Program-made: the position numbers and the translations under genes | Source: Rugalucina vietnamica | Lineage: Eukaryota; Mollusca; Bivalvia; Lucinida; Lucinidae | Reading direction: 5' to 3' | Length of the DNA: 64,000 nt | NCBI GenBank assembly: GCA_964017185.1 | Contig: OZ024876.1 | Location: 18,054,226-18,118,225, forward strand | Notes under the pieces: model-generated | Databases searched by the model: none | Seen by the model: only the letters and a program-made list of their open reading frames with translations | Told to the model about the DNA's origin: nothing | In this document: positions 5,270 through 63,828 of the stretch, piece by piece | Position numbering within the stretch: position 1 is the first letter of the stretch | How the letters are laid out: every line of letters begins with the position of its first letter

Positions 5270-5376
5270 TTAGTTGTTCTATTGTACAGTGAAGTTATTG
5301 TATGGATTTTAACGTCCTTCAGCATTTGATTGTTCTCAGTATACAATTGTACAAAAACTAAAAGGAAAAACAGAAA

Positions 5377-5613
5377 TGAGCCTGTGCGTGAGAAAACCAA
5401 CAATTTGGGCTTCGACCAGGTCCGACACAAACCAGGCTGTACAAGCACAGAAGATGGCTAGAGACTGGAAATTTTGGATTTAGAAAGAAGAGAAATTGTA
5501 CTAACCGTGTAGCGAAAACAAAGGCGCTGATCAGCTTCACGGTTACCGCGAAGCTGATCTGCGTCTTTGTTTTCGCATTTGCAAATTGTTGGTTTTCTCA
5601 TGCACAGGCTCAA
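5377..5613 (+). repeat. Family A MITE, copy A1
   Basis: Begins TGAGCCTGTGCGTGAGAAAACC and ends GGTTTTCTCATGCACAGGCTCA. The centre is a strong palindrome (GGCGCTGATCAGCTTC.CGGTTACCGCGAAGCTGATCTGCG) next to TTTGTTTTCGC. Many copies of this family occur in the window; this one is close to full length. Confidence 0.85.
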
Positions 5614-6430: not shown

Positions 6431-9021
6431 AGCTCACCTGAGCCGAAGGCTCACAAGGTGAGCTAATAGGATAGCCATGATCCGGCGTCCGTCCGTCGTC
6501 CGTCGTCGTCCACAATTTCAAAGATCTTCTTCTCTGAAACCGCTTGGCCAATCTAGTTGAAATTTTATGTGGAGCCTCCTTGGGTAGTGGCATTTCAAGT
6601 TTGATCGCGAAATCCAGGTCACATGACCAAGATGGCCGCCACGCCCATATATGGTAAAAACCACTCAAAAATCTTCTTCTCCAGAACCGGTGGGCCGATT
6701 TCCACGAAACTTGGTATGTAGCATCGGGGATGTCAGCCCATCATAGTTTGATAAAATGATGACCCCTGGATGACCTTGAATTATTTTACGGCAAGGTCAA
6801 ATTTGGAAACATAGGCTTTTACATGGGAAAAAGTGAAAACTATGGATTTTTGGAAAACTATTGCAGCCTGAGGCCTGAAAAGTGGTAGATGCAAACAACT
6901 TATGGAGTAGATGAAGGTATGTGATTAATATAGGTCAAGGTCATCTCTTGACCTTGGCCAGTCTTTCGTCCATACACACTTTTCAAAGATCTTCTTCTCT
7001 GAAACTGCTTGGCCAATCAAAGTGAAATTTTATGTGGAGCATCCATGGGAAGGGGATACGAAAGTTTGATCGCGAAATCCAGGTCACATGACCAAGATGG
7101 CCGCCACGCCCATATATGGTAAAAACCACTCAAAAATCTTCTTCTCCAGAACCCGTGGGCCGATTTCCACGAAACTTGGTATGTTGCATCAAGGACCTCA
7201 GCCCATCATAGTTTGATAAAATGATGACCCTTGGATGACCTTGACCTATTTTATGGCAAGGTCAAATTTGGAAACATAGGCTTTTACATAGGAAAAAGTG
7301 AAAACTATGGATTTTTTTAAAACTATTGCAGCCTGAGGCCTGAAAAGTGGTAGATGCAAACAACTTATGGAGTAGATGAAGGTATGTGACTAATATAGGT
7401 CAAGGTCATCTCTTGACCTTGGCCAGTCTGTTGTCCATACACACTTTACAAAGATCTTCTTCTCTGAAACTGCGCGGCCAATCAAAGTGAAATTTTATGT
7501 GGAGCATCCATGGGTAGGGGAGACGAAAGTCTGGTCGCGAAATCCAGGTCACATGACCAAGATGGCCGCCACGCCCATGTATGGTAAAAACCACTCAAAA
7601 ATCTTCTTTTCCAGAACCGGTGGGCCGATTTCCACGAAACTTGGTATGTAGCATCAACGACCTCAGCCCATCATAGTTTGATAAAATGATGACCCTTGGA
7701 TGACCTTGACCTATTTTATGGCGAGGTCAAATTTGGAAACATAGGCTTTTACATAGGAAAAAGTGAAAACTATGGAATTTTTTGAAAACTGTTGCAGCCT
7801 GAGGCCTGAAAAGTGGTAGATGCAAACAACTAATGGAGTAGATGAAGGTATGTGATTAATATAGGTTAAGGTCATCTCTTGACCTTGGCCAGTCTGTTGT
7901 CCATACACACTTTTCAAAGATCTTCTTCTCTGAAACTGCGCGGCCAATCAAAGTGAAATTTTATGTGGAGCATCCATGGGTAGGGGAGACGAAAGTTTGA
8001 TCGCGAAATCCAGGTCACATGACCAAGATGGCCGCCACGCCCATATATGGTTAAAACTACTCAAAAATCTTCTTCTCCAGAACTGGTGGGCCGATTTCCA
8101 CGAAACTTTGTATGTAGCATCGGGGACCTCAGCCCATCATAGTTTGATAAAATGATGACCCCTGGATGACCTTGAATTATTTTACGGCAAGGTCAAATTT
8201 GGAAACATAGGCTTTTACATAGGAAGAAGTGAAAACTATGGATTTTTTAAAAACTATTGCAGCCTGAGGCCTGAAAAGTGGTAGATGCAAACAACTAATG
8301 GAGTAGATGAAGGTATGTGATTAATATAGGTCAAGGTCATCTCTTGACCTTGGCCAGTCTGTTGTCCATACACACTTTTCAAAGATCTTCTTCTCTGAAA
8401 CTGCTTGGCAAATCAAAGTGAAATTTTATGTGGAGCATCCATGGGTAGGGGAGACGAAAGTTTGATCGCGAAATCCAGGTCACATGACCAAGATGGCCAC
8501 CACGCCCATATATGGTAAAAACCTTTCAAAAATCTTCTTCTCCAGAACCGGCAGGCCAATTTTCATGAAACTTGGTATGTAGCATTTGGGACTCCAGCCC
8601 ATCATAGTTTGTTGAAATGATGACCCTATGATGACCTTGACCTATTTTACGGCAAGGTCAATTTTGGAAACATAGGCTTTCACATGGGAAAAGGCGAAAA
8701 CAGCTGTTGCAGCCTGAGACCTGACAGTTGCTAGATGCAGACAACTAATGGAGTCAATGAAGGTAAGTAATTAATGAAGGCCAAGGTCATGACTTGACCT
8801 TGGCCCAAGGTCATTTAAATATCAAAATTAAAATTGTGGTTTTCTCAGAAATCACTGGGTTTGGAAACTATTGCAGCCTGAGACCTGAAACTTTGCAGAT
8901 GCAGACAACTTATGAAGTCAATAAAGGTGTGTGAGTATTCAAGGTCAAGGTCATTTCATTATGACTTAATACTCCAAGATCAGGCTTCAGGTGAGCGTTC
9001 TCAGGACCAATGGTCCTCTGG
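6431..9021 (+). mobile_element. Helentron-like element H1 with ~465-bp tandem core
   Basis: The 5' end is a hairpin (AGCTCACCTGAGCC-GAA-GGCTCACAAGGTGAGCT), followed by a CCGTCCGTCGTC-rich stretch. The core is about five tandem units of ~465 bp, marked by TTCAAAGATCTTCTTCTCTG near 6514, 6980, 7446, 7912 and 8377. The 3' end carries CAGGTGAGCG (complementary to the 5' GCTCACCTG), then a hairpin AGGACCAATGGTCCT and CTGG. Flanking bases are T|...|T. Subterminal inverted repeats, a 3' hairpin and T|T insertion match non-autonomous Helentron/HINE elements. The short minus-strand frames inside are not genes. Confidence 0.8.
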
Positions 9022-10859: not shown

Positions 10860-12186
10860 TACCAATATCTTCTCTTTTGAAAATGATAAGCCCCATCCCA
10901 ATTGTCCCCGAAAAATGAAAAGGCAAAAAAGTTTTGGTCATTTGTCAAGTCCCTTAAAAAAGACGCGTCTGGGATCAATACTCTTAGAGAAAACGGTATC
11001 TTGAAGACTCATACTTTGGATAAGGCTAATATTTGTAATAGGCAGTTTCAGTCAGCCTTCACTCGCGAATCAAATGATGAAATCCCCTCCAAAGGCACAA
11101 GTCCCTTCACCGCTATGGGTGAAATTACAGTTGACCCCAAAGGGGTCATTAAACTGTTGAATAATCTGAATATACATAAGGCGCCTGGGCCAGATGGCCT
11201 GAGTGCTAGGGTGTTGAAAGAATGTAGTTCTGAAATTGCTCCTGTCCTGACCTATATCTTCAATGAGTTGCTTGCTCAGGATGCTGTACCAGACAATTGG
11301 CGACAGGCAAATGTACCCCCGGTATTTAAGAAAGGTGAGAAATATGATGCAGCTAATTATCGACCGGTATCGCTTACTTGTATCTGTTGCAAAACTCTAG
11401 AGCATATAATAGTCAGCAACATAAACAAACACTTGGCTCTTGAAAACATTCTTGCTGACTGTCAACATGGTTTCCGAAGTCAAAGGTCTTGCAAAACCCA
11501 GTTAGTTCAGTTTTATCATGACTTGGTTAGTAATCTGGATCGAGCTGTGTGTCCTGACCACAGGCAGATGGACGTGATTGTCATGGATTTCACTGAGGCC
11601 TTTGACAAGGTCCCTGGACGTGATTGTCATGGATTTCACTGAGGCCTTTGACAAGGTCCCTCATAAAAGGTTGTTATACAAACTCGACTTCTACGGGATT
11701 AGAGGATCTACACATAAGTGGATAGACTCATGGCTCTCTGAGCGCTCTCAAAAAGTGGTATTAGATGGCCGTGCCTCAGATCCAGTCCCGGTTCTATCTG
11801 GTGTCCCACAAGGATCGGTCTTAGGACCGGTCCTATTTCTTATTTTCATTAATGATCTTCCTGACAATATCAGGTCATCTGTTTGGCTATTTGCTGATGA
11901 TTGTGTTTTGTACAGGAATATTAAGTCACCATTGGATTGTCAAATTTTACAAGATGACCTGAATAGCTTGGCCAAATGGGAAATGGATTGGCAAATGAAA
12001 TTCAGTGTTAGCAAATGTCATTCAATGAGGGTGACACGGCTACATCCAAGCAGGCATATACAATTTAATTACACACTGCATCAGCAAACATTAGAACAGG
12101 TTCAGTCCGCAAAATACCTAGGTTTAACTATCACAGATGATCTGGATTGGGGTCAACATATTTCCGAAATTACATGCAAGGCCTAA
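10860..12186 (+). pseudogene. Non-LTR retrotransposon reverse transcriptase fragment, frame broken by 46-bp duplication
   Basis: The frame from about 10902 reads KKFWSFVKSLKKD..., then the RT core HKAPGPDGLSARVLKE, NWRQANVPPVFKKGEKYDAA and NYRPVSLTCICCKTLEH, and CQHGFRSQRSCKTQL. Motif A (VIVMDFTEAFDKVP) follows. After a break come LSGVPQGSVLGPVLFLIFIN, then FADDCVLYR with the catalytic DD, and SAKYLGLTITDDLDWGQHI. The break is an exact tandem duplication of 46 bp (11570-11615 and 11616-11661) that repeats motif A and shifts the frame. The sequence stops at HISEITCKA, short of the usual C-terminal part; the endonuclease is absent upstream. It therefore looks like a dead, internally truncated LINE of Jockey/CR1 type. 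It lies upstream of the IQGAP exons, in the same orientation, probably within an intron. Confidence 0.9.
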
Positions 12187-12233: not shown

Positions 12234-12435
12234 TGATGCAACATCTCACAACACATGACAAAATGGAGTGCTGTGATTGTAAGCCTTATCAATTGGCAAC
12301 GACATACATTCTGGAGTTCATTGTCTTCACTAAATGTTGTCAAATCAATATTGCTTCACTGTAAGTTGTTGCCAGACTGATCTAGCTTCCAATCACTTCA
12401 CTCCATTTTGTTGTGTGTTGTGGCATCTGCAATGT
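12234..12435. repeat. Foldback repeat in IQGAP intron
   Basis: The arm at 12234-12286 (ACAACACATGACAAAATGGA...) pairs imperfectly with 12385-12435 (TCCATTTTGTTGTGTGTTGT in complement sense). It is a MITE-like inverted repeat whose outer limits were not determined. Confidence 0.6.
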
Positions 12436-12541
12436 GAGAAATTTTTGTTGCATCATAGGTATATAGTGTGAGTAGGCACACCCATATAATGATATGAACA
12501 TGTTTGTATAATGATTAATGAACAATATCCATTATTTACAG

Positions 12542-12661
12542 ATCCCACAAAGCAAAAGCTAACAAGGCTGCCAAGAAAGCACATGGAACTATCAAGTATA
12601 ATGGTGCCAAGTTACATGAGAAAGGTGTCATCTTGGAAATAGAGGGACTTACACATAATCA
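12542..12661 (+). CDS. IQGAP: IQGAP scaffold protein, third-last coding exon
   Basis: The exon is bounded by TTATTTACAG and GTAAGT. It is 120 nt long, beginning with the last base of a split codon and ending with the first two (CA of a glutamine codon). It encodes SHKAKANKAAKKAHG, then TIKYNGAKLHEKGVILEIEG and LTHNQ. This matches the RasGAP C-terminal (RGCT) domain of IQGAP proteins, in which human IQGAP1 has LHEKGVLLEIEDL at this point (from recall). IQGAPs are cytoplasmic actin-, calmodulin- and Cdc42/Rac-binding scaffolds; the RGCT domain binds partners such as E-cadherin/beta-catenin and CLIP-170. The next exon joins in phase to give ...THNQ|FKNV. Earlier exons (calponin homology, IQ, GRD) were not found in 1-12541 and should lie to the left of the window. 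Confidence 0.93.
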
Positions 12662-12762
12662 GTAAGTTTTCTTTGTCCAAGGTCAGTAAGACAAAATTTG
12701 TCTAGAAAATAGTACATCTGTCTAAAAAAAAAAAAAAACACATCTAATAATACACATTTAGA

Positions 12763-12870
12763 TGAGCCATGATATGAGAAAATCGGTCATCTGGGTTTCT
12801 GACAAGGTCTGAAACCAGCCTGTGCAGCTACAGAAGAAAGTAGAGAAGGAATTTTACTATCAGTGTAGCG
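12763..12870 (+). repeat. Family A MITE, left fragment
   Basis: TGAGCCATGATATGAGAAAA begins a truncated family A copy (…CAGCCTGTGCAGCTACAGAA…) that breaks off where the splice-junction repeat array starts (GTGTAGCGATATTTTGTAGG). Confidence 0.7.
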
Positions 12871-13576
12871 ATATTTTGTAGGTTCTGATATAGCTGCAGC
12901 AAGACTTGCCATTATTTTGTAGGTTTAAGAATATATAGTAAAGACAGATCCATTTACTTTATAAATTTTGAGATAGCTGCAACTACACATTCGTCATTAT
13001 TTTGTTGGTTTAAGAATGTTCAGTAGCTGTGTCCTCGTCAATAATTTTTCAGTCATGTTGGGAGGGAGCCATCGCTTCCTTGGTATTAACCAGTACTGTG
13101 GGTAGTTAATGTGCCTTGCTCAAGGACACTACACGGTGCTGCCAATAAGCTAAAGAATGCTCACACCTGCAAATCCCTTAATTATGTAGTTTGAGATAGC
13201 TTCAACGACAGATCCATTTATTTTGTATTTTTGAGACACCTGCAACTGCACATTCGTCATTATTTTGTAGGTTTAAGAATGTTCAGTTTAAGATAGCTGC
13301 AACTGTTCAGTTTGAGATAGCTGCAACTGCACATTCGTCAATATTTTGTAGGTTTCAGAATGTTCAGTTTGAAATAGCTGCAACAGCACATTCGTCAATA
13401 TTTTGTAGATTTAAGAATGTTGGTTTTGAGATTGCAACTGCACATTCGTCATTATTTTGTAGGTTTAAGAATGTTCAGATTGAGATAGCTGCAGCTGCAC
13501 ATTCGTCAATAATTTGTAGGTTTAAGAATGTTCAGTTTGAGATAGCTGCAACTGCACATTTGTCATTATTTTGTAG
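12871..13576 (+). repeat. Tandem array of IQGAP 3' splice-site/exon-start copies (~57-bp units)
   Basis: Units of the type ATTATTTTGTAG|GTTTAAGAATGTT, continuing through CAGTTTGAGATAGCTGC, repeat the intron end and first ~35 bases of the following IQGAP exon. The five units nearest the exon start after AGs ending at 13270, 13351, 13408, 13462 and 13519, with spacings of 81, 57, 54, 57 and 57 bp, all multiples of three. Frame 0 is open from 13200 to 13685. Older, more diverged units lie at 12871-13049 and 13183-13260. They are separated by ~130 bp of other sequence that resembles a diverged SINE (TTGCTCAAGGACACTACACG). Confidence 0.9.
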
Positions 13577-13685
13577 GTTCAAGAATGTTCAGTTTGAGAT
13601 AGCTGCAACTGCAGATCCCGGTGTGTTTGAAGTTAGTGCCAAGTTGATGGGGGTAGACGTAGAGAAAGTGGAACTCATCTTCCAG
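13577..13685 (+). CDS. IQGAP: IQGAP scaffold protein, second-last coding exon
   Basis: 109 nt between the acceptor TTTTGTAG and the donor CAG|GTCAGT. It completes the split glutamine codon and encodes FKNVQFEIAATADPGVFEV, then SAKLMGVDVEKVELIFQ. This aligns with the FKNV.FEI.....G.FEV.AKFMGV segment of vertebrate IQGAP RGCT domains (from recall). The exon ends in phase 0 and joins DLLQLQYEG in the last exon. The exon start is the original of the tandem junction array immediately upstream, so several in-frame alternative acceptors exist. I prefer this acceptor because it alone leads directly into the conserved ADPGVFEV segment with no inserted module. A family A MITE begins only 23 bp after the donor. 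Confidence 0.93.
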
Positions 13686-13708
13686 GTCAGTTATCTTATC
13701 TCATCAAA

Positions 13709-13891
13709 TGAGCCTGTACATGAGAAAACCAACAATTTGGGTTCTGACCAGGTCCGACACAAACCGGCCTGTACAGTCACAGATGATGGCTAGAAGTTTG
13801 AAATTTTGGATATAAGTAGAAGAGGGATTGGACTATCCGAGTAGCGAAAACAAAGGCTGATCTGCGCCTTTGTTTTCGCCTAAGCATTTTT
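13709..13891 (+). repeat. Family A MITE A2, left part (interrupted by H2; right part 16043-16074)
   Basis: Begins TGAGCCTGTACATGAGAAAA 23 bp after an exon donor. It runs through the central palindrome to CGCCTAAGCATTTT, where H2 is inserted. The right end of A resumes after H2 as TGTTGGTTTTCTCATGCAGT then GGCTCA. Confidence 0.85.
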
Positions 13892-16042
13892 AGCTCACCT
13901 GAGCCGAAGGCTCACAAGGTGAGCTTATAGGATGGCCATGATCCGGCGTCCGTCCGTCGTCCGTCGTCCGTCCGTCGTCGTCGTCCACAATTTCAAAGAT
14001 CTTCTTCTCTGAAACCGCTTGGCCAATCTAGTTGAAATTTTATGTGGAGCCTCCTTGGGTAGTGGCATTTCAAGTTTGATCGCGAAATCCAGGTCACATG
14101 ACCAAGATGGCCGCCACGCCCATATATGGTAAAAACCCTTCAAAAATCTTCTCCAGAACCGGTGGGCTGATTTCCACGAAACTTGGTATGTAGCATCGGG
14201 GACTTCAGCCCATCATAGTTTGATAAAATGATGACCCTTGGATGACCTTGACCTATTTTACGGCAAGGTCAAATTTGGAAACATAGGCTTTTACATGGTA
14301 AAAAGTGAAAACTATGGATTTTTTGAAAACTATTGCAGCCTGAGGCCTGAAAAGTGGTAGATGCAAACAACTAATGGAGTAGATGAAGGTATGTGATTAA
14401 TTTAGGTCAAGGTCATCTCTTGACCTTGGCCAGTCTGTCGTCCATTCACACTTTTCAAAGATCTTCTTCTCTGAAACTGCTGGGCCAATCAAAGTGAAAT
14501 TTTATGTGGAGCATCCATGGGTAGAGGAGATGCAAGTTTGATCGCGAAATCCAGGTCACATGACCAAGATGGCTGCCACGCCCATATATGGTAAAAACCA
14601 CTCAAAAATCTTCTTCTCCAGAACCGGCAGGCCGATTTTCATGAAACTTGGTATGTAGCATTTGGGGCTTTAGCCCATCATAGTTTGATAAAATGATGAC
14701 CCTAGGATGACCTTGACCTAATTTACGGCAATGTCAATTTCGGAAACATAGGCTTTTACATGGGAAAAAGTGAGAACTATGGATTTTTTGAAAACTATTG
14801 CAGCCTGATGCCTGAAAAGTGGTAGATGCAAACAACTAACGGAGTAGATGAAGGTATGTGATTAATGTAGGTCAAGGTCATCTCTTGACCTTGGCCAGTC
14901 TGTCGTCCATACACACTTTTCAAAGGTCTTCTTCTCTGAAACTGCTGGGCCAATCAAAGTGAAATTTTATGTGGAGCATCCATGGGTAGGGGAGACGAAA
15001 GTTTGATTGCAAAATCCAGGTCACATGACCAAGATGGCTGCCACGCCCATATATGGTAAAAACCACTCAAAAATCTTCTTCTCCAGAACCGGCAGGCCGA
15101 TTTTCATGAAACTTAGTATGTAGCATCTGGGACTCCAGCCAATCATAGTTTGATAAAATGATGACCCTAGGATGACCTTGACATATTTTACGGCAATGTC
15201 AATTTTGGGAACATAGGCTTTTACATGGGAAAAAGTGAAAACTATGGATTTTTTGAAAACTATTGCAGCCTGATGCTTGAAAAGTGGTAGATGCAAACAA
15301 CTAATGGAGTAGATGAAGGTATGTGATTAATTTAGGTCAAGGTCATCTCTTGACCTTGGCCAGTTTGTCGTCCATACACACTGTTCAAAGATCTTCTTCT
15401 CTGAAACTGCTGGGCCAATCAAAGTGAAATTTTATGTGGAGCATCCATGGGTAGGGGAGACGAAAGTTTGATCGCGAAATCCAAGTCACGTTACCAAGAT
15501 GGCCGCCACGCCCATATATGGTAAAAACCACTCAAAAATTTTCTTCTCCAGAACCGGCAGGCCAATTTTCGCGAAACTTGGTATGTAGCATTTGGGACTA
15601 CAGCCCATCATAGTTTGATCAAATGATGACCATAGGATGACCTTGACCTATTTTACGGCAAGGTCAATTTTGGAAACATAGGCTTTTACACGGGAAAAGG
15701 CGAAAACAATGGATATTTTGGAAACTGTTGCAGTCTGAGACCTGGAAGTTGCTAGATGCAGACAACCAATGGAGTCAATTGAGGTAAGTAATTAATGAAG
15801 GCCAAGGTCATTTCTTGACCTTGACCCAAAGTCATTTAAATATCAAAATTAAAATTATGGTTTTCTCATAAATCACTGGGTTTTGAAACTATTGTAGCCT
15901 GAGACCTGAAACTTTGCAGATGCAGACAACTTATGAATTCAATAAAGGTGTGTGAGTATTCAAGGTCAAGGTCATTTCATGATGACTTAATACTCCAGGA
16001 TCAGGCTTCAGGTGAGCGTTCTCAGGACCAATGGTCCTCTGG
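13892..16042 (+). mobile_element. Helentron-like element H2 (four ~465-bp core units), inserted in family A
   Basis: Same 5' hairpin (AGCTCACCTGAGCC...) and same 3' end (CAGGTGAGCG, AGGACCAATGGTCCT, CTGG) as H1. Core units are marked near 13990, 14455, 14919 and 15384. It lies in the last IQGAP intron. The host on both sides is one family A MITE split at the T-run after its central palindrome. Confidence 0.85.
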
Positions 16043-16303: not shown

Positions 16304-17969
16304 AGCTCACCTGAGCCGAAGGCTCACAAGGTGAGCTTATAGGATGGCCATGATCCGGCGTCCGTCAGTCCGTCCGTCGTCCGTCCGTCGTCCACAATTT
16401 CAAATATCTTCTTCTCTGAAACCGCTTGGCCGATCTAGTTGAAATTTTATGTGGAGCCTCCTTGGATAGTGGCATTTCAAGTTTGATCGCGAAATCTAGG
16501 TCACATGACCAAGATGGCCGCCACGCCCATATATGGTAAAAACCACTCAAAAATCTTCTTCTCCAGAACCGGCTGGCCGATTTCCACGAAACTTGGAATG
16601 TAGCATTGAAGACCTCAGCCCATCATAGTTTGATAAAATGATGACCCTTGGATGACCTTGACCTATTTTACAGCAAGGTCAAATTTGGAAACATAGGCTG
16701 TTACATAGGAAAAAGTGAAAACTATGGATTTCTTGAAAACTATTGCAGCCTGAGGCCTGAAAAGTGGTAGATGCAAACAACTAATGAAGTAGATGAAGGT
16801 ATGTGATTAATATAGGTCAAGGTCATCTCTTGACCTTGGCCAGTCTTTGTCCATACACAGTTTTCAAAGATCTTCTTCTCTGAAATTGCGCGGCCAATCA
16901 AAGTGAAATTTTATGTGGAGCATCCATGGGTAGGGGAGACGAAAGTTTGATCGCGAAATCCAGGTCACATGACCAAGATGGCCGCCACACCCATATATGG
17001 TTAAAACCACTCAAAAATCTTCTTCTCCAGAACCGGTGGGCCGATTTCCACGAATCTTGGTATGTAGCATCGGGGACCTCAGCCCATCATAGTTTGATAA
17101 AATGATGACCCTTGGATGACCTTGACCTATTTTACGGCAAGGTCAAATTTTGAAACATAGGCTTTTACATGGGAAGAAGTGAAAACTATGGATTTTTTGA
17201 AAACTATTGCAGCCTGAGGCCTGAAAAGTGGTAGATGCAAACAACTAATGGAGTAGATGAAGGTATGTGATTAATATAAGTCAAGGTCATCTCTTGACCT
17301 TGGCCAGTCTGTTGTCCATACACACTTTTCAAAGATCTTCTTCTCTGAAACTGCTTGGCCAATCAAAGTGAAATTTTATGTGGAGCATCCATGGATAGGG
17401 GAGACGAAAGTTTGATCGCGAAATCCAGGTCACATGACCAAGATGGCCGCCACGCCCATATATGGTAAAAACCTTTCAAAAATCTTCTCCAGAACCGGCA
17501 GGCCAATTTTCATGAAACTTGGTATGTAGCATTTGGGACTCCAGCCCATCATAGTTTGTTGAAATGATGACCCTATGATGACCTTGATCTATTTTACGGC
17601 AAGGTCAATTTTGGAAACATAGGCTTTCACATGGGAAAAGGCGAAAACAAACTGTTGCAGCCTGAGGCCTGAAAGTTGCTAGATGCAGACAACTAATGGA
17701 GTCAATGAAGGTAAGTAATTAATGAAGGCCAAGGTCATGTCTTGACCTTGGCCCAAGGTCATTTAAATATCAAAATTAAAATTATGGTTTTCTCAGAAAT
17801 CACTGGGTTTGGAAACTATTGCAGCCTGAGACCTGAAACTTTGCAGATGCAGACAACTAATGAAGTCGATAAAGGTGTGTGAGTATTCAAGGTCAAGGTC
17901 ATTTCATTATGACTTAATACTCCAAGATCAGGCTTCAGGTGAGCGTTCTCAGGACCAATGGTCCTCTGG
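16304..17969 (+). mobile_element. Helentron-like element H3 (three core units)
   Basis: 5' hairpin AGCTCACCTGAGCCGAAGG at 16304. Core units are marked near 16397, 16866 and 17330. The 3' end has CAGGTGAGCG, the AGGACCAATGGTCCT hairpin and CTGG, followed by T. It sits directly after a family A right end inside the last IQGAP intron. Confidence 0.82.
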
Positions 17970-21700: not shown

Positions 21701-21823
21701 GATTTACTGCAGCTGCAGTATGAAGGTGTGGCTGTTATGGAGATGTTCGGCAAAACCAAAATTAATGTTAACTTGCTCATCTTTCTCATTAATAAGAAAT
21801 TCTACAGCAGTGCTAGGAAATAA
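21701..21823 (+). CDS. IQGAP: IQGAP scaffold protein, last coding exon and stop
   Basis: The acceptor CTATGTTTCAG is followed by 40 codons and TAA. The product reads DLLQLQYEGVAVMEMFGKTK, then INVNLLIFLINKKFYSSARK. This is the extreme C-terminus of the RGCT domain: human IQGAP1 has DLLQLQYEGVAVMKLFDRAK followed by a near-identical hydrophobic tail (from recall). Phase 0 agrees with the previous exon, about 8 kb upstream. The 3' untranslated region starts at 21824; its end was not determined. An AATAAA at about 26332 is a possible but unproven polyadenylation signal. Confidence 0.95.
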   Translation, partial: DLLQLQYEGVAVMEMFGKTKINVNLLIFLINKKFYSSARK

Positions 21824-22434: not shown

Positions 22435-22587
22435 GTGTTATAAAATTATGAGTCGGATAGGGTTCTGTTGAACTTTTTGTCAACATTCCAAAATATGAGC
22501 TGCAATGTGAAAAAACCTGTTAACAAACGAGAATACGAAGCCCCAAATCTGCTGCACAGTGGGCTGCGTCTACACTGCTGATCTGTA

Positions 22588-22968
22588 TGAGCCTGTGCGT
22601 GAGAAATACAACAATTTGGGTTCCGACTAGGTCCGACACAAACCAGGCTGTACAGTCACAGAAGATGGCTAGAGGCTTGAAATTTTGTATTTAAGTAGAA
22701 GAGAGATTGTACTTTTATTGTTTTTTTTCTTATGCATTGGCACATAAAATAATGAGCCTTCACATAAGAAAACCAACAATCTGGGTCTCTCACTAGGTCA
22801 GACAGAAACCAGGCTGTGCAGTCACTGAAGATGGCTAGAGACTGGAAATTTTGGATTTAAATATAAGAGAGAATATACTATCCATGTAGCTAAAACAAAG
22901 GCGCTGATCAGCTTCACTGTTACAGCGAAGCTGATCTGCGCCTTTGTTTTTGCCCAAGCATTTTTAGC
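22588..22968 (+). repeat. Two family A copies: truncated A6 and left part of A7 (interrupted by H5)
   Basis: A6 runs from TGAGCCTGTGCGTGAGAAAT at 22588 and lacks its centre (to ~22744). A7 starts TGAGCCTTCACATAAGAAAA at 22753, passes the palindrome and stops at TGCCCAAGCATTTT, where H5 begins. A7 resumes at 24461 (TGTTGGTTTTTTTATGCAGT, then GGCTCA). Confidence 0.8.
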
Positions 22969-45535: not shown

Positions 45536-45617
45536 TATCAAGAAATATAAGTATTTTAATATACAAGCTATACAGAGGATCTTACACGAGAGGTTGTTTC
45601 ATATGAAATTTATTAAA

Positions 45618-45854
45618 TGAGCCTCGACGCGAGAAAACCGGTCTTCGGGGTTTCCGACCAGGTCCGACACAAACCGGCCTGTACAAGCTCAGAAAAGAGC
45701 TAGAAGCTTGAAATTTCGGATTTAAGTAGAAGAGGAATTGTACTATCCGAGTAGCGAAAACAAAGGCGCTGATCAGCTTCGCGGTTACCGCGAAGCTGAT
45801 CTGCGCCTTTGTTTTCGCCTAGGCAAAAATCCGGTTTTCTCACGATGCGGCTCA
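45618..45854 (+). repeat. Family A MITE, well-preserved copy
   Basis: TGAGCCTCGACGCGAGAAAA...CACGATGCGGCTCA with an almost perfect centre (GGCGCTGATCAGCTTCGCGG and TTACCGCGAAGCTGATCTGC). Probably a young copy. Confidence 0.9.
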
Positions 45855-52717: not shown

Positions 52718-52953
52718 TGAGCCGCCGCATGGGAAAACCAGCAATCTGCATAGGCGAAAACAAAGGCGCAGATCAGCTTCGCAGTAACTGCGAAGCTGAT
52801 CAGCGCCTTAATTTTTGCTACACAGATAGTACAATTCCTCTACTTTCTAAATCCAAAATTTCCAGCCTCTAACCATCTTCTTTGAATGTACAGCCCGGTT
52901 TGTCTCGGACCTGGTCGGAACCCAAATTGTTGGTTTTCTCACACACAGGCTCA
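52718..52953 (-). repeat. Family A MITE, copy A14 (reverse)
   Basis: TGAGCCGCCGCATGGGAAAA...GGCGCAGATCAGCTTCGCAG...TTTTCTCACACACAGGCTCA. Confidence 0.88.
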
Positions 52954-53050
52954 TTTGTCTATCTTGTGAGGTGTGTATGCTATTTTTGTGCCTCCTGCAA
53001 GGTGTATTTTAATTGCATATTCCTGCTGACCCTGTGATGGATAAAAGTTT

Positions 53051-57506: not shown

Positions 57507-60349
57507 TATAGCCCCGCTTCTCAGCTTTTTTGCAGGGTGAAAAAAACAATGACAGGTAACAGTTAACTATCACAAGCTAGATCTCGTCAATATTGATGCA
57601 CATACAAAATTTGGTCTGATTATGTCAATTCGTTCTCAAGATATTGAGCGGAAACGAAATTCTGACCTCAATAAAGGGCCATAACTCCATCAAAATTTTG
57701 CGAAAAATGACGGGTAACAATCCCAAGCTAGATCTTGTCAATGATGATGTGCATACAAAATCTGGACGGATTCTGTCAATTCGTTCTCAAGATATTGAGC
57801 GGAAACGAAATTCTGACGTCAATCAAGGGCCGTAACTCCCGTCAAAATTTTGCGAAAAATGACGGGCAACAATCCCAAGCTAGATCTTGTCAATGATGAT
57901 GTGCATTCAAAATTTGGTTGGATTCTGTCAATTCGTTCTCAAGATATTGAGCGGAACTGAAATTCTGATGTCAATCAAGGGCCGTAACTCCGTCAAAATT
58001 TTGCGAAAAATGACGGGTAACAATCCCAAGCTAGATCTTGTCAATGATGATGTGCATATAAAATTTGGTTGGATTCTGTCAATTCGTTCTCAAGATATTG
58101 AGCGGAAACGAAATTCTGACGTCAATCAAGGGCCGTAACTCCGTCTAAATTTTGCAAAAAATGACGGGTAACAATCCCAAGCTAGATCTTGTCAATGTTG
58201 ATGTGCATACAAAATTTGGTCGTATTCTGTGAATTCGTTCTCAAGATATTGAGCGGAAACAAAATTCTGATGTCAATCAAGGGCCGTAACTCCGTCTAAA
58301 TTTTGCGAAAAATGACGGGTAACAATCCCAAGCTAGATCTTGTCAATGTTGATGTGCATACAAAATTTGGTCGTATTCTGTGAATTCGTTCTCAAGATAT
58401 TGAGCGGGAACGAAATTCTGATGTCAATCAAGGGCCGTAACTCCGTCAAAATTTTGCGAAAAATGACGGGTAACAATCCCAAGCTAGATCTTGTCACTGT
58501 TGATGTGCATACAAAATTTGGTCGTATTCTGTGAATTCGTTCTCAAGATATTGAGCGGAAACGAAATTCTGATGTCAATCAAGTGCCGTAACTCCGTCAA
58601 AATTTTGCGAAAAATGACGGGTAACAATCCCAAGCTAGATCTTGTCAATGTTAATGTGCATACAAAATTTGGTCGTATTCTGTGAATTCGTTCTCAAGAT
58701 ATTGAGTGGAAACGAAATTCTGATGTCAATCAAGGGCCGTAACTCCGTCTAAATTTTGCGAAAAATGACGGGTAACAATCCCAAGCTAGATCTTGTCAAT
58801 GTTGATGTGCATACAAAATTTGGTCGTGTTCTGTGAATTCGTTCTCAAGATATTGAGCGGAAATGAAATTCTGATGTCAATCAAGGGCCGTAACTCCGTC
58901 AAAATTTTGCGAAAAATGACGGGTAACAATCCCAAGCTAGATCTTGTCAATGATGATGTGCATATAAAACTTGGTTGGATTCTGTCAATTCGTTCTCAAG
59001 ATATTGAGCGGAAACGAAATTCTGACGTCAATCAAGGGCCGTAACTCCGTCTAAATTTTGCGAAAAATGACGGGTAACAATCCCAAGCTAGATCTTGTCA
59101 ATGTTGATGTGCATACAAAATTTGGTCGTATTCTGTGAATTCGTTCTCAAGATATTGAGCGGAAACAAAATTCTGATGTCAATCAAGGGCCGTAACTCCG
59201 TCTAAATTTTGCGAAAAATGACGGGTAACAATCCCAAGCTAGATCTTGTCAATGTTGATGTGCATACAAAATTTGGTCGTATTCTGTGAATTCGTTCTCA
59301 AGATATTGAGCGGGAACGAAATTCTGATGTCAATCAAGGGCCGTAACTCCGTCAAAATTTTGCGAAAAATGACGGGTAACAATCCCAAGCTAGATCTTGT
59401 CACTGTTGATGTGCATACAAAATTTGGTCGTATATTGTGAATTCGTTCTCAAGATATTGAGCGGAAACAAAATTCTGATGTCAATCAAGGGCCGTAACTC
59501 CGTCAAAATTTTGCGAAAAACGACGGGTAACAATCCCAAGCTAGATCTTGTCAATGTTGATGTGCATACAAAATTTGGTTGTATTCTGTGAATTCGTTTT
59601 CAAGATATTGAGCGGAAACGAAATTCTGATGTCAATCAAGGGCCGTAACTCCGTCTAAATTTTGCGAAAAATGACGGGTAACAATCCCAAGCTAGATCTT
59701 GTCAATGTTGATGTGCATACAAAATTTGGTCGTATTCTGTGAATTCGTTCTCAAGATATTGAGCGGAAACGAAATTCTGATGTCAATCAAGGGCCGTAAC
59801 TCCGTCAAAATTTTGCGAAAAATGACGGGTAACAATCCCAAGCTAGATCTTGTCAATGTTGATGTGCATACAAAATTTGGTCGTATTCTGTGAATTCCTT
59901 CTCAAGATATTGAGCGGATACAAAATTCTGACGTCAATCAAGGGCCGTAACTGCGTCAAAATTTTGCGAAAAATGACGGGCAACAATCCCAAGCGAGATC
60001 TTGTTGCTGTTGATGTGTATACAAAATTTGGTCAGATTCTGTCAATTTGTTCTCAAGATATTGAGCGGAAACGAAATTTTGGCAATAATGAAGGGCCATC
60101 CAAGGGCAATAACTCTTCTGCAAATTTGGGGAAACTGACAGCATTTACACATAAGTAGATGTTGTCAATATTGATGCATATGCCAAATTTGGTTAAAGTC
60201 TAACAACTGGTTCTCAAGTTATGTGTGGTAATGGTATGACGGAAGGACGGAAGGACGTAATAACGGAATAACAGAATAACGGAATAACGGAACTACGGAA
60301 GGACAGAGTGAATCCAGTATAGCCCCCAATTTTTCAAAGCGGGGCTATA
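57507..60349 (+). mobile_element. Tandem-core element with TATAGCCCCGCTT ends
   Basis: The 5' TATAGCCCCGCTT (57507-57519) is complementary to the 3' AAGCGGGGCTATA (60337-60349). Just before the 3' end, TATAGCCCCC (60319-60328) can pair with the same 3' arm as a terminal hairpin. A (GGAAGGAC/GGAATAAC)n stretch lies at 60240-60300. This is the layout of the small element at 29019-29327 and resembles bivalve pearl/HINE elements (from recall). Confidence 0.75.
57545..60165 (+). repeat. 151-bp tandem repeat array (about 17 units)
   Basis: The anchor GACGGGTAACAATCCCAAGC recurs from 57710 to 59976 as sixteen units, fifteen periods of 151 bp (one of 152). A diverged unit lies at each side. Units contain ATTGAGCGGAAACGAAATTC and CAAGGGCCGTAACTCCGTC. 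All 60-100-residue frames here are shadows of the repeat. Variant units recur at 906 bp (6 x 151). Confidence 0.95.
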
Positions 60350-61506: not shown

Positions 61507-63828
61507 CTAGAGGACCATTGGTCCTGTAGCTCACCTGAGAGATTATCACATTGTAAGCTCATGAGTTTTAATTAATTGAGAATCGACCAATGAAAGTCTA
61601 TGCATGGACACTATTGACCCCTGGGGCATGGCCAAATTTGACCCAGGGGCATGACTGGCACAATTTATAATGGGGACTACCAAACATTGCTACATACAAA
61701 ATATAGAAGCTCTGGGCCTTTTGGTTTCAGAGAAGAAATTTTTTTTTAGTTTTTCCCATTGTAAGTCTATGGAGACTATCTACCCCCGGGGCGTGGCCAA
61801 ATTTGACCCCAGGGGCATGGCTGGCACAATTTATGTAGAGGACCATTAGCCATTGCCACATACAAAATATCAAAGCTGTGTGCCTTGTGGTTTCAGAGAA
61901 GAAGATTTTTTAATTTTTTTCCCATAGCAAGTCTATTGAGACTATCAACCTCCGGGGCCTGGCCAAATTTGACCCCAGGGGCATGAATGGCACAATTTAT
62001 GTAGAGGACCATTAGCCATTGCTACATACCAAATATCAAAGCTGTGGGCCTAGTGGTTTCAGAGAAGAAGTTTAGTTTTTCCTATTGTAGGTCTATGGAG
62101 ACTATCGACCCCCGGGGCGTTGCCAAATTTGACCCTGGGGACATGATTGGCATAATTTATGTAGAGGACCATTAGCCATTGCCACATACAAAATATCAAA
62201 GCTGTGGGCCCTGTGGTTTTAGAGAAGAAGAATTTTGAATTTTTTTCCCATAGTAAGTCTATGGAGACTATCAACCCCCGGGGCGTGGCCAAATTTGACC
62301 CCAGGGGCATGAATGGCACAATTTATGTAGAGGACCATTAGCCATTGCTACATACCAAATATCAAAGCTGTTGGCCTAGTGGTTTCAGAGGAGAAGATTT
62401 TTTTAGTTTTTTTCCTATTGTAGGTCTATAGAGACTATCGACCCCCGGGCATGGCCAAATTTGACCCCAGGGACATGATTGGCATAATTTATGAAGAGGA
62501 CCATTAGCCATTGCCACATACAAAATATCAAAGCTGTGGGCCCTGTGGTTTCAGAGAAGAAGATTTTTTTAATTTTTTTCCCATAGTAAGTCTATGGAGA
62601 CTATCAACCCCCGGGGCGTGGCCAAATTGGACCCCAGGGGCATGAATGGCACAATTTATGTAGAGGACCATTAGCCATTGCTACATACCAAATATCAAAG
62701 CTGTGGGCCTAGTGGTTTCAGAGAAGAAGATTTTTTTAGTTTTTCCAATTGTAAGTCTATGGAGACTATCGACCCCTGGGGCGTGGCCAAATTTGACCCC
62801 AGGGGCATGGCTGGCACAATTTATGTAGAGGACCATTAGCCATTGCCACATACCAAATATCAAAGCTATGGGCCCTGTGGTTTCAGAGAAGAAGATTTTT
62901 GAATTTTTTTTCCCATAGTAAGTCTATGGAGACTATCGACCCCCGGGGCGTGGCCAAATTTAACCCCAGGGGCATGAATGGCACAAATTATGTAGAGGTC
63001 CATTAGCCATTGCTACATACCAAATATCAAAGTTGTGGGCATAGTGGTTTCAGAGAAGAAGATTTTTTTAGTTTTTCCCATAGTAAGTCTATGGAGACTA
63101 TCGACCCCCGGGGCGTGGCCAAATTTGACCCCAGGGGCATGAATGGCACAATTTATGTAGAAGACCATTAGCCATTGCTACATACCAAATATCAAAGTTG
63201 TGGGCATAGTGGTTTCAGAGAAGAAGATTTTTTTAGTTTTTCCCATTGTAAGTCTATGGAGACTATCGACCCCCGGGGCGTGGCCAAATTTGACCCCAGG
63301 GGCATGGCTGGCACAATTTATGTAGAGGACCATTAGCCATTGCTACATACCAAATATCAAAGCTGTGGGCCCTGTGGTTTCAGAGAAGAAGATTTTTTAA
63401 TTTTTTTCCCATAGTAAGTCTATGGAGACTATCGACCCCCCGGGGCGTGGCCAAATTTGACCCCAGGGGCATGAATGGCACAATTTATGTAGAGGACCAT
63501 TAGCCATTGCTACATACCAAATATCAAAGCTGTGGGCCTAGTGGTTTCAGAGAAGAAGATTTTTTTAGTTTTTCCCATTGTAAGTCTATGGGACCTATCT
63601 GTTGCCATGGAAACCACAATTTTGATACAATCTGCTCCAAAACCTAATGCCATCAATCCCCCAACCCAATTATGGTTCACATTAAATTTGATCAAGATCG
63701 GCCTACTAGCTTCAGAAATATTCTTCTTTGAAATTGTGGACGGACGACGACGGACGACGACGACGACGGACGACGGATGCCTGCCTATCCTATAAGCTCA
63801 CCTTGTGAGCCTTCGGCTCAGGTGAGCT
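61507..63828 (-). mobile_element. Helentron-like element H7 with 166-bp tandem core, inserted in family B
   Basis: The reverse 3' end CTAGAGGACCATTGGTCCT is at the left (so the element ends in CTAG). The reverse 5' hairpin AGCTCACCTTGTGAGCCTTC and GGCTCAGGTGAGCT is at the right, next to a GGACGACGACGGACG stretch. The core has about eleven units of ~166 bp (61776, 61939, 62099, 62266 ... 63427), marked GGAGACTATCGACCCCCGGG and GACCCCAGGGGCATG. The phrase is shared with H6. All frames inside are shadows. Confidence 0.85.

Follow-up and report, generated by a model that had tools for sequence, protein, structure and literature searches.

One intron of an IQGAP gene ends in a tandem array whose units each carry a copy of the junction between that intron and the following exon. 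As a ladder of possible splice sites, such an array would lengthen IQGAP without breaking the protein. Do the upstream copies feed extra modules into IQGAP, or has a repeat simply grown across a splice junction that continues to be used as before?

An IQGAP splice junction inside a tandem array

The window (the whole 64-kb stretch of DNA that was analysed) contains three IQGAP coding exons, all on the + strand; the gene and its introns point to an animal. The exon before the array (12542–12661, boundaries from sequence reading) ends in LHEKGVILEIEGLTHNQ, the second (13577–13685, FKNVQFEIAATADPGVFEVSAKLMGVDVEKVELIFQ, donor CAG|GTCAGT) forms the end of the array, and the last coding exon (21701–21823) carries the stop codon TAA. 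The intron at 12662–13576 is of phase 2 by sequence reading; its donor is CA|GTAAGT and its acceptor TTTTGTAG|G. When exons 12542–12661 and 13577–13685 were joined and compared with PDB chains using phmmer, they matched IQGAP2 (E 1.7e-18), IQGAP1 (2e-16) and IQGAP3 (4.4e-12), as the gene and exon assignment of an earlier, sequence-only reading had anticipated. The Pfam RasGAP_C score was 25.8 bits, slightly below the cut-off of 26. Judged by these matches, exon 13577–13685 belongs to the IQGAP C-terminal domain. The alignment runs without a gap across the exon junction NQ|FKN (SH|FRN in IQGAP3), and the insert-free form is thus the conserved protein. A search of the window with human IQGAP1 baits for the RasGAP part and the region before 12542 found no earlier IQGAP exon.

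Six TTTGTAG acceptors lie on the + strand at 13270, 13351, 13408, 13462, 13519 and, as the true site, 13576; their spacings in the repeat-family comparison are 81, 57, 54, 57 and 57 bp. Sequence reading and the repeat search gave the same positions, motif and spacings as the sequence-only reading. TRF reports a repeat at 13304–13613 with a period of 57, 5.5 copies, 88% matches and a score of 501. The repeat spans the 3′ splice junction, so each unit consists of an intron end, an AG and an exon start, and the last unit is the real exon. A unit straddling the junction had been proposed before; its size, given then as ∼12 intron plus ∼35 exon bases, is ∼20 plus ∼37 in our alignment. The young, in-frame part of the array occupies 13230–13576. 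Within it, a 24-bp internal duplication (13280–13329, TRF) made the 81-bp unit from a 57-bp unit.

Upstream of this part lie older copies, also on the + strand. Decayed junction copies at 12872–13024 have acceptor-like ends at 12881 and 12922 and a third end at 13007 that lacks the AG (AG to TG), and a further old unit at 13178–13228 keeps exon-like bases up to GATCC and ends in AT instead of AG at 13228. The spacings of these four ends are 41, 85, 221 and 42 bp. Nine extra junction copies can therefore be counted; the five near copies with TTTGTAG reported earlier are present, although five is not the total. The AG is lost in two of the nine and kept in all five proximal ones. Between the older and younger copies, the stretch at ∼13025–13177 does not resemble the unit and has no second copy in the window; it is probably an insertion. 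BLAST of 13520–13685 (E up to 1) against the window matched only 12872–13685, and no known structured RNA was found in 12400–14000 (Rfam, gathering threshold). Repetition on this scale far exceeds chance expectation, which cannot be said of the open frame.

Reading frame and constraint

The stop-to-stop open reading frame 13200–13793 encodes 197 aa and remains open past the donor at 13685. An open frame from 13200 to 13685 with spacings in multiples of three was part of the sequence-only reading, and both hold. Every acceptor from 13270 on keeps the exon frame and would add Q followed by a module of the type FKNVQFEIAATAHSSLFCR, as given before, in our frame translation. Modules are mostly 18–19 residues long (27 for the longest unit), and the peptides predicted from them are of the FKNVQFEIAATAHSS type. 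Measured by distance, the older end at 12922 is in phase with the exon, unlike those at 12881 and 13007; exon-frame stops, the last at 13197, separate these three outermost copies from the exon.

Several comparisons bear on whether this openness reflects constraint. Six stop-free stretches in the window, on both strands and with the array's own included, reach 197 aa. Of 5112 57-mers assembled from the 37 exon bases, a 17-mer from introns of the window and TAG, 74% had no stop in the exon frame. When 13, 15 or 17 random substitutions were placed in six consensus copies (20 000 runs per substitution number), 57%, 53% and 49% of the simulated arrays had no stop. The six array units show 15 codon changes relative to their consensus, 12 nonsynonymous and three synonymous, a small sample. 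At kappa 2 the neutral expectation for a unit is 0.72 nonsynonymous : 0.24 synonymous : 0.04 stop, roughly 3:1, and the simulations predict 3.0–3.8 synonymous changes against the three observed. Since the observed 12:3 lies near the simulated expectation, no constraint is seen, at low statistical power.

The length changes in the young part give the best evidence for constraint that we found. All three of them (−15, +24 and −3) are divisible by three (P = 0.037 if they are independent single events). Neither of the two in the old part (−16 and +28) is, so that over the array three of five countable changes are divisible by three (P = 0.21 for at least three of five; spacings taken as single events, leaving aside the 221-bp interval, which contains the stretch unlike the unit). 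The open frame is mildly suggestive of constraint at most. The sequence-only reading had suggested that units which stay open and in frame could be sometimes spliced in, or that the array could be young. Youth suffices, and as an argument for splicing the observation is weak, because about half of the simulated arrays stay open and the codon changes stand at 12:3. The older copies have shifted frames, acquired stops or lost their AG, and the open frame needs no explanation beyond a young, neutrally evolving array.

Splice signals

Crude measures, the pyrimidine count and the length of the AG-free zone, were used to compare the acceptors. The 18 bases before the AG contain 12 pyrimidines at the true site and 12, 11, 11, 12 and 10 at 13270, 13351, 13408, 13462 and 13519. 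The AG-free zone measures 29 nt at the true site and 33, 29, 20, 30 and 23 nt at these five. By these measures 13270 and 13462 equal the true acceptor, and 13351 nearly does, with two mismatches between its AG-free zone and that of 13576. Upstream use could therefore be substantial. In the scanning model the first AG downstream of the branch point is chosen (PMC1431707). Since AGs are present inside every unit, a branch point above the array would not reach 13576 under this model. The branch point for 13576 should thus lie within about the last 30–45 bases, inside the last repeat. Given the near-identical acceptor context in several copies, some in-frame use of upstream acceptors is plausible, and there is no obvious reason for every one of them to be silent.

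The donor side is different. The donors at 12661 and 13685 match GTRAGT at six and five of six positions, against one or two for the donor-like hexamers in the array; the one after 13408 lacks the GT.

Origin and possible use of the array

We consider it probable that the array originated in tandem duplication of the junction and is a neutral minisatellite, with mainly canonical splicing and at most low-level leakage. We infer that a short tandem duplication took in ∼20 bases from the end of the intron and ∼37 from the start of the IQGAP exon, and that further slippage or unequal exchange then produced a minisatellite lying in the intron and ending in the true exon; its evolution would be neutral. 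The mature mRNA would mainly use the acceptor at 13576 and encode the conserved protein, and the upstream copies would at most yield small amounts of in-frame isoforms that are longer by 19, 38, 56, 75 or 102 residues. The neutral reading is supported by an array whose units cross the junction and whose last unit is the true exon, and by the decay of the outer copies. Points against it are the young length changes, all in steps of three, the AG kept by all five proximal extra copies, the acceptors at 13270 and 13462 that equal the true one by the crude measures, and the small number of codon changes. Nothing in the sequence itself indicates that selection maintains the array, which is most likely neutral.

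That the upstream copies form a ladder of alternative acceptors that is used appreciably, adding modules to the IQGAP C-terminal domain, perhaps in numbers that vary with allele length, seems to us rather unlikely. Much of the anatomy would suit such use: Q plus an in-frame module results from all acceptors from 13270 on, the upstream AG-free zones (20–33 nt against 29) and pyrimidine contents (10–12 of 18 against 12) resemble those of the true site, the branch point for 13576 is predicted within the final repeat, and 13351 has an AG-free zone that is two bases off. However, purifying selection on the modules is not seen (12 nonsynonymous to three synonymous, in a small sample), the three paralogues matched in the PDB have no insertion here, and the AG-free zones of 13408 and 13519 are shortened to 20 and 23 nt. 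A more specific proposal makes each unit a self-contained acceptor module of branch region, pyrimidine tract, AG and exon start, with allele length and splice choice setting the number of ∼19-residue modules; we regard it as unlikely.

The frame, open throughout, would also accommodate a constitutive long exon that starts after 13270 and places 102 residues in all transcripts, and its 415 nt are an acceptable exon length. This is nevertheless quite improbable, as the residues would interrupt a conserved domain whose structure has been solved (3iez, 4eza, 1x0h and 3isu) and the codon changes look unconstrained. Short tandem arrays are prone to misassembly, and the copy number in the assembly could be off. 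Yet substitutions and indels distinguish the copies, and the old ones are strongly diverged, which makes an assembly artefact very improbable. Barely conceivable is the birth of introns, with the AG|GT units acting as acceptor and donor of 57-nt mini-introns or as recursive splice sites. Introns have been described as arising when AGGT segments are duplicated in tandem (PMC2891723, PMC3443670), but array hexamers that match GTRAGT at one or two of six positions, with the GT lost after 13408, are too weak as donors, and we dismissed mini-introns and recursive splicing.

Comparison with known systems

Intronic minisatellites, or VNTRs, are a familiar kind of repeat, and the IQGAP array resembles them in its 57-bp tandem units, its internal duplication and its diverged edge copies. 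It differs in that it includes the 3′ splice site and the exon start, which makes its last unit part of the coding sequence. New splice sites have been described as originating from segments with AGGT that were duplicated in tandem; the tandem copy holds AG|GT and duplications in multiples of three allow frame-keeping variants, but the segment is exonic and yields a new intron (PMC2891723, PMC3443670). The IQGAP unit lies across an acceptor that already existed, occurs in ∼10 copies and lacks good donors; a usable donor in each unit, which marks that type of intron gain, is absent, with one or two of six matches to GTRAGT. NAGNAG tandem acceptors likewise compete and keep the frame (PMC3250501). 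Their candidate counterparts here are spaced by 54–81 nt, and each brings a tract and a possible branch region of its own. The IQGAP C-terminal region itself (RasGAP_C and the following domain) is represented by the true exon, which matches the IQGAP1–3 chains; the matched proteins, compared at the protein level, have no insertion at the array's junction position.

An array of this kind in IQGAP was not described among the literature matches listed, in their titles and the starts of their abstracts, which is no proof of absence. A 21-base pattern had no match in viral_contigs, a viral collection, nor had the IQGAP peptide, whose 103 pattern matches in genome_contigs yielded none that was confirmed. 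The collections searched hold viruses and prokaryotes, so few matches were to be expected there.

If several of the acceptors are used, the locus would be a natural multi-copy experiment on duplicated acceptors, with near-identical sites at regular spacing. It would help to test how the spliceosome selects one of several equivalent sites, and would illustrate a minisatellite route to extra protein modules with the frame intact. If they are unused, the array is an example of a repeat that has expanded over a splice junction in a conserved gene with no obvious damage.

Surrounding repeats

A diverged piece of a dispersed ∼160-bp repeat lies directly upstream of the array (∼12762–12871). The repeat is also found at 13706–13865, with relatives at 5374–5535, 22587–22713, 45612–45777, 52795–52957 and elsewhere; its copies in the window are numerous and occur in both orientations. 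TRF identified three large tandem arrays of a 464–465-bp unit (6516–8701, 13991–15823 and 16398–17753) whose consensus sequences start nearly identically; two of the three sit in the IQGAP intron after 13685. Two overlapping open frames at 10890–12186, which from their protein letters we take to resemble reverse transcriptase, have a 46-bp tandem duplication (11569–11661, TRF) at their overlap. At 57564–60078 and 61604–63599 TRF found long arrays with tandem units of 151 bp and 166 bp.
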